The notes below the pieces were generated by a model. It saw only the letters and a list, made by a program, of their open reading frames with translations, had not been told where the DNA came from and ran no database searches. Of a DNA stretch of 38,054 bases, positions 25,201 through 27,718 are shown one piece after another. Each line of letters begins with the position of its first letter. Positions within the stretch are counted from its first letter, which is position 1. The stretch spans positions 1 to 38,054 of the forward strand of contig NZ_VDUZ01000073.1 in NCBI RefSeq assembly GCF_008039615.1, read 5' to 3'. The position numbers were made by a program, and so were the translations under genes. The stretch is from Vineibacter terrae (lineage in GTDB: Bacteria; Pseudomonadota; Alphaproteobacteria; Reyranellales; Reyranellaceae).

Positions 25201-26478
25201 TTACGCTGCGCGGGCTTCCGTCACGCCGGGCAGCGGGAATTGCCGGCAGAACGCACGGACCTCGTCCGCCAGCCGCGACAGGCGGGCCGCGTCGTCGGGA
25301 TGGCGCATCGCATCGACCATCCAGCCGGCGATGCGGTGCATCTCGGCCTCGCCCATGCCGCGCGTGGTGGCCGCGGGCGTGCCGATGCGCAGGCCGCTGG
25401 GGCGCAGCGGCGGGCGCGGATCGTCCGGCACCACCTGCTTGTTGGCGGCGATGCCGATCCGGTCGAGCGCCTCCTCGGCGCGCCGGCCATCGAGGCCGAA
25501 GCTGTCGATCGTGTGCAGCACCAGCAGGTGGTTGTCGGTGCCGCCGGTAATCAGGCTCACGCCCTGCGCCAGGAGGGCGGTCGCCAGTGCCTGGGCGTTG
25601 GCCAGCACCTGGCGGGCATAGTCGCGGAATGCCGGTTCGGCCGCCTTGCGCAGGGCCACGGCCGTGGCGGCGATGGTGTGCATGTGCGGCCCGCCCTGCA
25701 GGCCCGGGAACACCGATGCGTCGATCGCCTTGGCTTGCGCCGAGCGGCACAGGACGAGGCCGGCGCGCGGGCCGCGCAGCGACTTGTGCACCGTGGTCGT
25801 GACGATATCGAAGCCGTCGTCGAGCGGGTTGCGCAGCGCACCGGCGGCGACGAGGCCGCCGATATGGGCGATATCGGCCATCGCCAGCGCGCCGACCGCA
25901 TCGGCGATGCGGCGGAAGGCGCCATAGTCCAGCCCGCGGGGATAGGAGCTGAAGCCGCACAGCACCAGCTTCGGACGGGTCTCCAGCGCTGTGGCCATCA
26001 GCGCGTCGTAGTCGATGGCACCCTGCTGGTTGTGCCGGGTCTTGTAGCGCACGAAATTGAACAGGCGGCCCATGTGCGACACCGGCGCGCCGTGCGTCAG
26101 GTGGCCGCCATGCGACAGGTCCATGGCGAGCACGGTATCGCCCGGCTGCAGGCAGGCGAGGTACGCCGCCTGGTTCATGGCCGAGCCGCTGAGCGGCTGC
26201 ACGTTGGCGTGCTCGGCACGGAACAGGGCCCGGGCCCGTTCGCGTGCGATGTCCTCGATCCGGTCGGTGAACTGCTGGCCACCGTAGTAGCGCCGGCCGG
26301 GATAGCCTTCGGCGTACTTGTTGGTGAGCACGGTGCCGAGCGTCGCCAGAACCTCGGGATAGGTGTAGTTCTCCGACGGGATCAGCTCGATCCCGTCGCG
26401 CTGGCGCACTTCCTCGCCGCCGATCGCGGCGGCGATCTCGGGGTCGTTGTCGGCAAGCAGTTGGCGATGATGGTCCAT
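25201..26478 (-). CDS. glyA: Serine hydroxymethyltransferase (atypical form)
   Basis: A 425-residue PLP enzyme expected to interconvert serine plus tetrahydrofolate with glycine plus methylene-tetrahydrofolate. The PLP lysine is Lys232 in TTTVHKSLRGPRAG. NKYAEGYPGRRYYGGQQFTD, the AMDLSHGGHLTHG loop and the aspartate of MADIAHIGGLVAAG are present. It differs from usual proteobacterial GlyA: ELIPSENYTYP instead of ELIASEN, HKSLRGPRAG instead of HKTLRGPRGG, and SGSAMNQAAY instead of SGSQAN. It may be a second SHMT acquired from another lineage or a paralog. AGGAGG precedes the start at 26478. A ZTP riboswitch lies directly upstream, and convergent engB downstream. Confidence 0.92.
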   Translation of the reverse strand: MDHHRQLLADNDPEIAAAIGGEEVRQRDGIELIPSENYTYPEVLATLGTVLTNKYAEGYPGRRYYGGQQFTDRIEDIARERARALFRAEHANVQPLSGSAMNQAAYLACLQPGDTVLAMDLSHGGHLTHGAPVSHMGRLFNFVRYKTRHNQQGAIDYDALMATALETRPKLVLCGFSSYPRGLDYGAFRRIADAVGALAMADIAHIGGLVAAGALRNPLDDGFDIVTTTVHKSLRGPRAGLVLCRSAQAKAIDASVFPGLQGGPHMHTIAATAVALRKAAEPAFRDYARQVLANAQALATALLAQGVSLITGGTDNHLLVLHTIDSFGLDGRRAEEALDRIGIAANKQVVPDDPRPPLRPSGLRIGTPAATTRGMGEAEMHRIAGWMVDAMRHPDDAARLSRLADEVRAFCRQFPLPGVTEARAA

Positions 26479-26507
26479 GGGCAGCCTCCTGACGTCGGTC
26501 GGAAACA

Positions 26508-26582
26508 TGCCCAGGCGAGCGGCCCCCGGCTGTCCGTGCTCCCCGGTGGTGGACGCCACCTTGACTCGCCAGTCACACGGAC
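26508..26582 (-). ncRNA. ZTP (pfl) riboswitch upstream of glyA
   Basis: On the minus strand the leader carries the conserved blocks of the pfl/ZTP aptamer in order: P1 5' strand GTCCGTG (26582-26576), GTGACTGGCG, a small GGTGG-CGT-CCACC hairpin, ACCGGGGAGC, P1 3' strand CACGGAC (26538-26532), then GCCGCTCGCCTGGGCA at the 3' end. P1 pairs perfectly over 7 bp. ZTP riboswitches sense the purine/folate alarmone ZMP/ZTP and control folate and purine genes such as glyA, folD and purH. The final TGGGCA (26513-26508) is complementary to TGCCCA (26483-26478), which overlaps the A of the start codon and encloses the AGGAGG site, suggesting translational control. Recognised by eye; not folded by program. 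Confidence 0.9.
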
Positions 26583-26703
26583 GGGGACGCCTCCGGTCAA
26601 GCCGGCGGCGCGGGCGGACTCATAGGCGGGTTGGCGGCGCAGCGCAAGCCGTCGCGCCGCGCCGGCGCCTTCCGTCATAAGACTGTCAATCGCGTCTGGC
26701 CGC

Positions 26704-26732
26704 TTGGCGCCGTGGTCCGGCTTGGTTATGGT
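26704..26732 (+). promoter_or_regulatory. Possible argB promoter
   Basis: TTGGCG (26704-26709), 17 bases, TATGGT (26727-26732). The start of transcription would be near 26739, only about 5 bases before the terminator-like hairpin at 26744. The -10 region TATGGTCCGGCG resembles that before dapD. Confidence 0.5.
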
Positions 26733-26743
26733 CCGGCGTTCAT

Positions 26744-26775
26744 GCCCTCGCCCGCATCCGGGCCGAGGGCTTTTT
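26744..26775 (+). terminator. Intrinsic terminator directly upstream of argB
   Basis: GCCCTCG (26744-26750) plus CCCG, a CATC loop, CGGG, one bulged C and CGAGGGC (26764-26770), followed by TTTTT (26771-26775). This is a textbook plus-strand terminator, yet argB starts on the same strand 26 bases later. It may stop transcripts arriving from upstream or act as an attenuator of argB. Confidence 0.8.
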
Positions 26776-26800
26776 CCGATCAGCGAGGGTGGGGGCGGCT

Positions 26801-27718
26801 ATGGCCGAACCGATGCAGCCGGAGAGCAAGGAGCAGAAGCGGTTGATCCGCATGGCCGAGACGATCTCGCAAGCGCTGCCCTATATGCGACGTCTCTCCG
26901 ACGCCAACATCGTGGTCAAGTACGGCGGCCACGCCATGACCGATCCGCATCTGGGCGACATCTTCGCGCGCGACATCGTGCTGATGAAGCAGGTCGGCAT
27001 GAACCCGATCGTGGTCCATGGCGGCGGTCCGCAGATCAACCGCATGCTCGAGCGGGTCGGCATCAAGAGCAACTTCGTGCACGGCCTGCGGGTGACCGAC
27101 GCGGCCACGATGGAGATCGTCGAGATGGTGCTGGCCGGCGCCATCAACAAGGCGATCGTGGCCGACATCAACGAATGCGGCGGCACCGCCGTCGGCATCT
27201 GCGGCAAGGACGGCAACCTGATCCTGGCACGCAAGGTCACCGAGATGCGCGATCCGCGCACCGGCGAGCTGCTGCAGGTCGATCTGCAGCAGGTGGGCGA
27301 GCCGGCCCGGATCAACGTCATGGTGCTGGAGCAGCTCGCCGCCGCCAAAGTGATCCCGGTGGTGGCGCCGATCGGCTTCGGCCTCAACGACGAGCTGACC
27401 TACAACATCAATGCCGACACCTCGGCCGGCGCGATCGCCGGCGCGATGCGCGCCAAGCGCCTGTACTTCCTCACCGACGTGCCGGGGGTGCTCGACAAGA
27501 ACAAGCAGCTGATCCGCGAGATGAACGTCGAGCAGGCGCGCGGCCTGATCGCCGACGGCACCATCTCCGGCGGCATGATCCCCAAGATCGAGAACTGCAT
27601 CGATGCCGTGAATGCCGGGGTCGAGGCCGCGGTGATCATGGACGGCCGCGTGCCGCACAGCCTGCTGCTGGAGTTGTTCACCGAATCGGGCGTCGGCACC
27701 ATGGTGAAGCGGAAGTAA
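26801..27718 (+). CDS. argB: N-acetylglutamate kinase
   Basis: A 305-residue amino-acid kinase phosphorylating N-acetylglutamate, the second step of arginine synthesis. VVKYGGHAM begins near residue 38 (phosphate-binding Lys40), [13 protein letters not shown] follows, and the C-terminal lysine region [20 protein letters not shown] is intact. The N-terminal helix ([20 protein letters not shown]) is of the arginine-sensitive, hexameric type, which suggests feedback inhibition by arginine. The ATG at 26801 is preceded by GAGGGTGGGGG. No other arginine gene is in the window. Confidence 0.95.

Follow-up and report, generated by a model that had tools for sequence, protein, structure and literature searches.

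The window, the whole stretch of DNA analysed, comprises 38,054 nt of Vineibacter terrae (contig NZ_VDUZ01000073.1), in which a minus-strand glyA gene has argB upstream and divergent, and the GTPase gene ysxC downstream and convergent. The glyA product scores 524 bits against the serine hydroxymethyltransferase (SHMT) model NF000586, well above the cut-off of 335, and between the gene and argB lies a leader with the following features:

25201..26478, minus strand: glyA, serine hydroxymethyltransferase of 425 aa, the second SHMT of the genome (NCBIfam NF000586)
26478..26483, minus strand: UGCCCA, 3' strand of the predicted anti-start arm, its last base being the A of the ATG (sequence, fold and conserved register)
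26485..26490, minus strand: Shine-Dalgarno (SD) site AGGAGG, 6 nt before the ATG (sequence; identical in both near relatives)
26501..26506, minus strand: GUUUCC, predicted partner of the SD core (minimum free energy fold; identical in both near relatives)
26502..26586, minus strand: complete ZMP/ZTP (pfl) riboswitch aptamer (RF01750 match)
26508..26513, minus strand: UGGGCA, 5' strand of the predicted anti-start arm, overlapping P3 (pair probabilities 0.93-1.0 with 26478..26483)
26509..26517, minus strand: conserved block CGCCUGGGC, with the pseudoknot 3' strand (CGCC) and the P3 3' strand (GGC, 26511..26509) (RF01750 alignment)
26567..26574, minus strand: conserved block GACUGGCG (RF01750 alignment)

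A covariance search confirmed the first-pass annotation in its claim of a ZTP (pfl) aptamer in the minus-strand leader of glyA: RF01750 matches at 26586..26502 with 61.5 bits (gathering threshold 39, E 9.2e-08) over positions 1-86 of the 86-position model. It is the only Rfam family to reach its gathering threshold in the window, and the search of the 8.76-Mb genome gave no second RF01750 match. The conserved blocks that had been claimed by eye, GACUGGCG and CGCCUGGGC, are both present; the span originally given, 26478-26582, rightly took in the ATG at one end and fell four bases short of 26586 at the other. Within GACUGGCG, GGCG (26570..26567) is the pseudoknot 5' strand, a role stated for ZTP aptamers in the available text of PMC10907184, and its complementarity to CGCC can be read from the sequence. 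The stems P1, P2 and P3, the last of them short (GCC/GGC), are all formed, P1 and P3 each containing a single mismatch. Given both blocks, the GGCG/CGCC complementarity and, 23 nt from the aptamer end to the ATG, an SHMT gene of the purine or one-carbon folate kind, the leader would by class be a ZMP/ZTP riboswitch, with ligand binding expected from that membership.

The 3' end of this aptamer appears to have a second partner. In the unconstrained fold of 26586..26450, UGGGCA and UGCCCA form six Watson-Crick pairs with probabilities of 0.93-1.0, including the A of the ATG, just as had been proposed from the letters, and the resulting arm spans -5 to +1 of the glyA start, a masking helix of the sort that marks a translational riboswitch. 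The accompanying idea that the arm loops out AGGAGG fared less well: the computed folds instead pair GGAGG with UUUCC just 3' of the aptamer, in free and in aptamer-constrained RNA alike. In the unconstrained fold this pairing belongs to nine further pairs, in which GUUUCCGAC (26506..26498) meets GUC (26493..26491) and GGAGGC (26489..26484) around a bulged A26490. The full 41-nt hairpin is predicted at -22.1 kcal/mol, equally low values arising in 2 of 2000 shuffles, and the local SD hairpin alone at -8.0 kcal/mol; the window's arm by itself is mildly unusual, in that 211 of 5000 start-region shuffles (4%) do as well.

Because the arm uses the P3 3' strand, GGC 26511..26509, aptamer and arm are mutually exclusive, an exclusion that fits an ON switch in the modelled folds, and the cost of opening the start region falls from 15.7 kcal/mol in the free RNA to 10.8 with the aptamer strand removed. 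The modelled cost moves in the direction of the suggestion that aptamer folding frees the start, and the arm does form in the free fold; in both folds, however, the SD stays paired. With the SD still paired in the aptamer-constrained model, from which pseudoknot energy is absent, the ON state as modelled falls short of an open start and of what the simple story needs; a weaker local SD hairpin may persist when the switch is on.

The reading that we prefer, with a probability of about four in five, is that this ZMP/ZTP riboswitch acts as an ON switch on the translation of a second SHMT, one inducible by folate stress. When ligand is absent, the aptamer 3' strand UGGGCA would leave P3 and pair with UGCCCA at the start codon, the arm thereby extending the local UUUCC/SD-core hairpin into one closed hairpin across the whole start region. 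A shortage of 10-formyl-folate would let ZMP/ZTP accumulate and hold P3 and the pseudoknot, the arm would be blocked, the start would be easier to open and more SHMT would be made, loading more one-carbon units on folate. We favour an ON switch acting on translation because no terminator-like site was found: a consensus scan of 26400-26860 gave neither an intrinsic terminator, the hallmark of terminator-type ZTP riboswitches, nor a sigma-70 promoter. We infer both the action on translation and the direction of control, taking the latter, like the ligand, from the riboswitch class and from trimethoprim responses elsewhere. The ON direction and the ZMP/ZTP ligand of the class are given in the available text of PMC2864571, PMC9481103 and PMC10907184, the second of which also predicts that some tandem ZTP riboswitches are OFF switches. 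A Cupriavidus metallidurans pfl-glyA-lacZ fusion was raised by trimethoprim, a sulfonamide being without effect (PMC10882993, available text), and a translational lacZ fusion to a Pectobacterium ZTP riboswitch was trimethoprim-induced and dead in an aptamer mutant (PMC10117056, available text).

Two near relatives, Rhodospirillaceae bacterium SYSU D60007 (L009) and Reyranella sp. CPCC 100927 (L010), with SHMTs 88% and 87% identical to the window's, retain the same elements. The letters GCCGCUCGCC to GACCGA and CGUCAGGAGG to GGACC are identical in all three leaders, as are AGGAGG, GUUUCC, GACUGGCG and CGCCUGGGC; the hairpin tip is longer by 7 bases in L009 and 8 in L010 with both arms unchanged, and the sequence upstream of the aptamer varies. 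The longer tips also bear on an in-frame ATG at 26508-26506 (minus strand), inside the aptamer 3' end. This codon is unlikely to be the true glyA start: homologues align from the ATG at 26478, which AGGAGG precedes by 6 nt, and in the two relatives, with spacings 7 and 8 bases longer, the upper ATG is out of frame. Its occurrence within the aptamer is probably chance.

What makes the arm convincing is its conservation among leaders and not the window sequence alone. RF01750 lies upstream in 37 of 80 glyA loci (9, 10, 11 and 7 by batch), these being the best 80 of 479 and not a census, and the 37, with 48 leaders from whole genomes and the window, make a set of 86. Start codons were assigned with a simple SD rule in place of annotation; 81 of the 86 leaders received a call, and 70 of these are distinct in the two strands compared. 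The five without a call are L005, L106, L109, L113 and L118, of which L005 had its start set by hand for the free-register test and is absent from the fixed-register and access analyses. Identical leaders, such as L004 and L039, which are one leader, were merged in the register tests and not in the access model, and leaders more than 80 nt from their start were excluded from the free-register test and the access model; L117, L120, L123 and L132 have starts called about 100 nt or more from the aptamer. L006, L008 and L092 were dropped as lying on the same contigs as L009, L010 and L017, L001 is the window itself, and ten RF01750 matches (a second match in G609 and nine weaker ones) were left out, having no locus.

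When the register is fixed so that the U of UGGGC stands opposite the A of ATG, at least five continuous pairs form in 26 of the 70 distinct leaders and at least six in 19, against at most 4 and 2 leaders, respectively, in registers slid by 1 to 4 bases. When start regions are redealt among leaders, at least six pairs form in 13.5 +/- 1.7, and the real 19 is reached by 5 of 5000 deals; at five pairs, redealt partners equal the real ones (26.2 vs 26), because the GGGC/GCCC core is nearly constant. Beyond that core the flanks match leader by leader, as in UGGGCGC/GCGCCCA (L013), UGGGCUU/AAGCCCA (L075), UGGGCAC/GUGCCCA (L055) and UGGGCGGC/GCCGCCCA (L070). The other 44 of the 70 lack five pairs in the fixed register, some of them using another register or a terminator-like tail.

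Freeing the register leads to a similar result. Among 70 distinct leaders within 80 nt of their start, helices average -11.06 kcal/mol with their real partners and -10.13 +/- 0.20 with dealt ones (0 of 5000 deals), and 49 reach -10 kcal/mol or better against 43.7 +/- 1.6 when dealt (6 of 5000) and 15.3 with shuffled start regions; at -5 kcal/mol there is no difference (61 real vs 60.5). Helices of -10 kcal/mol or better occur at 28 of 37 ZTP glyA starts against 22 of 136 for the other genes in those loci, a comparison whose P-values take no account of relatedness among leaders (one leader stands for both L035 and L046) and in which the other genes, unlike the glyA starts, needed an SD of at least three letters. 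That GCCC before ATG is merely common in such genomes can be rejected, as G[CT][CT]C stands at -8 to -1 in 25 of the 37 ZTP glyA genes and in 11 of the 136 others. Contrasts on supported branches of the SHMT tree number 3, 2 and 2 per pair type, none against pairing and too few for significance; this tree test of compensatory change was a thin one, its 22 rows having been chosen because their core was paired. In the access model of 77 leaders, the effect of removing the aptamer strand is uneven: 38 leaders gain 3 kcal/mol or more, 20 of them 5 or more, and 9 show no gain or a loss, with a median of 2.9; the gain is 4.9 kcal/mol in the window, and 3.4 and 2.8 in the two near relatives. The arm that the first-pass annotation had put forward as a specific design of this locus is thus supported, and its specificity is not: the arm is found again in front of many other genes with a ZTP riboswitch.

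The link of the riboswitch to an SHMT gene likewise stood, with a change in the gene concerned, which is the second SHMT and not the rpiB-nrdR copy. The other SHMT of the genome, 49% identical to the window's, lies on contig C10 between rpiB and nrdR (L003 907-3267), where the genome-wide covariance search gave no RF01750 match. Six of 61 relatives carry RF01750, and exactly those six (6/6 vs 0/55 of the others) encode an SHMT that shares 66% identity or more with that of the window, the best among the 55 non-carriers being 52% over full length, with short fragments up to 55%; among the same 61, no SHMT match was found in G001 (same genus, 87% complete) or G042. The riboswitch stands directly before that SHMT in five of the six, and in G037 aptamer and gene are on different contigs. 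Of 385 genomes belonging to the class, at least 11 have an SHMT at least 61% identical to the window's, and RF01750 lies directly before the gene in 10 of those 11, the eleventh of those listed, G293, having no RF01750 match. Two of the ten, G151 and G370, show only one SHMT each, so the riboswitch-linked enzyme is not always a spare. In the SHMT tree the window falls in a supported set of 27 rows from Pseudomonadota and Acidobacteriota, 26 of them with the riboswitch and the exception being a myxococcal row (L014); this was a quick tree in which the rpiB-nrdR copy, L003, sits on a very long branch (7.49), its placement being unused.

Some neighbouring cases may be recorded separately. The locus of the Polyangiaceae SHMT L014 has no RF01750 match, which may reflect loss or a leader below threshold. 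Two alphaproteobacterial SHMTs, 61% and 58% identical to the window's, at G293 C6:47429-48682 and G254 C1:187916-189157, also have no RF01750 match. A TwoAYGGAY RNA match (RF01731, 46.3 bits, gathering 43) lies at L031 2679-2811 on the minus strand, beside a ZTP-glyA leader and on the opposite strand to it. By eye, the 11 of the 21 RF01750 genomes in the class set that are not among the ten carry the aptamer before other genes, and a second RF01750 match, L106, runs off its contig end. We take the genes behind the aptamers L095, L100, L101, L127 and L133, and L091, L093, L099, L104, L111, L116, L122 and L134, to be LysE/RhtB-type exporter-like and DJ-1/PfpI-type-like genes, judging by eye; such genes are less usual ZTP partners than purH, folD or glyA.

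Three other accounts of the locus must be weighed. The switch might be transcriptional, an anti-start hairpin, or Rho acting on the untranslated leader, ending transcription when ligand is absent. Precedent is on its side, since terminators overlap many pfl RNAs (PMC2864571, available text), the Clostridium beijerinckii ZTP model is terminator-based (PMC10907184, available text) and the Thermosinus ZTP riboswitch is termed a transcriptional ON switch in PMC7337938, in the available part of which nothing on translation was found. By eye, moreover, a terminator-like T-rich tail follows a G+C-rich arm in the leaders of some relatives (L021, L035, L066), and Rho-dependent ending is possible. At 26400-26860, however, there is no terminator-like site, what follows the hairpin is coding sequence with no run of T, and the arm ends on the start codon itself, so that we consider transcriptional control unlikely here.

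It is very unlikely that the riboswitch is real and the arm inactive, control passing through the SD hairpin or some other fold. The SD hairpin does remain paired in the constrained fold, and its letters are identical in the two relatives except at the tip; yet neither slid registers nor other genes in those loci come near the conservation of the start-codon register. That the aptamer itself is decayed or inactive and control of glyA lost, as the single mismatches in P1 and P3 might hint, is scarcely credible: the full-length model match scores 61.5 bits, three relatives have identical core blocks amid varying flanks, and the aptamer goes with the same SHMT type in the six of 61 relatives that carry it, in one of which a contig end separates the two. 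Translational ON control through the arm remains our preferred reading. The chances are about even for a wider proposal, namely that a register-locked UGGGC/start platform is common to ZTP leaders of Proteobacteria, Desulfovibrionaceae and Acidobacteriota before several genes, and that the distinct SHMT isozyme travels with it as a portable riboswitch-plus-gene cassette, a one-carbon backup usually found beside a housekeeping SHMT.

Should the preferred reading hold, one could tell in advance which of the two SHMTs these bacteria would raise in response to antifolates, and the leader would supply a compact translational sensor part of the ON type. The use of that reading lies in a clean start-codon design common to many ZTP leaders and in a switch that marks the second SHMT. 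The riboswitch class and its partnership with glyA are already known, pfl RNAs before glyA having been listed in 2010, with glyA among the five commonest partners (PMC2864571, available text). The mechanistic ZTP papers covered treat, in their available text, terminator-type or general ZTP folding; no description of a start-codon arm was found in the ZTP literature searched, which did not extend to the founding paper (Kim 2015), and we do not claim that the arm is unreported.

Among known systems, C. metallidurans resembles V. terrae in having one pfl riboswitch in its genome, upstream of glyA, a likeness drawn from description and not from sequence; its reporter was an operon fusion, and the available text describes no start-codon arm (PMC10882993). 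Herbaspirillum seropedicae has the same pfl class before glyA, known there as an annotation (PMC7011215, available text). The Pectobacterium case is likewise a proteobacterial ZTP riboswitch and differs in being a reporter fusion and not glyA, the available text giving no description of its platform (PMC10117056). A whole-riboswitch ZTP covariation model describes, for the class, strand exchange between the aptamer and its expression platform, as proposed here, but was built from terminator-filtered sequences and, in its available text, does not treat a translational ZTP platform (PMC13273304). The window's leader thus shares with the pfl motif RF01750 a full aptamer match upstream of glyA, and differs in its platform: terminators in the available text of PMC2864571, and here an aptamer strand predicted to pair with the start codon itself.
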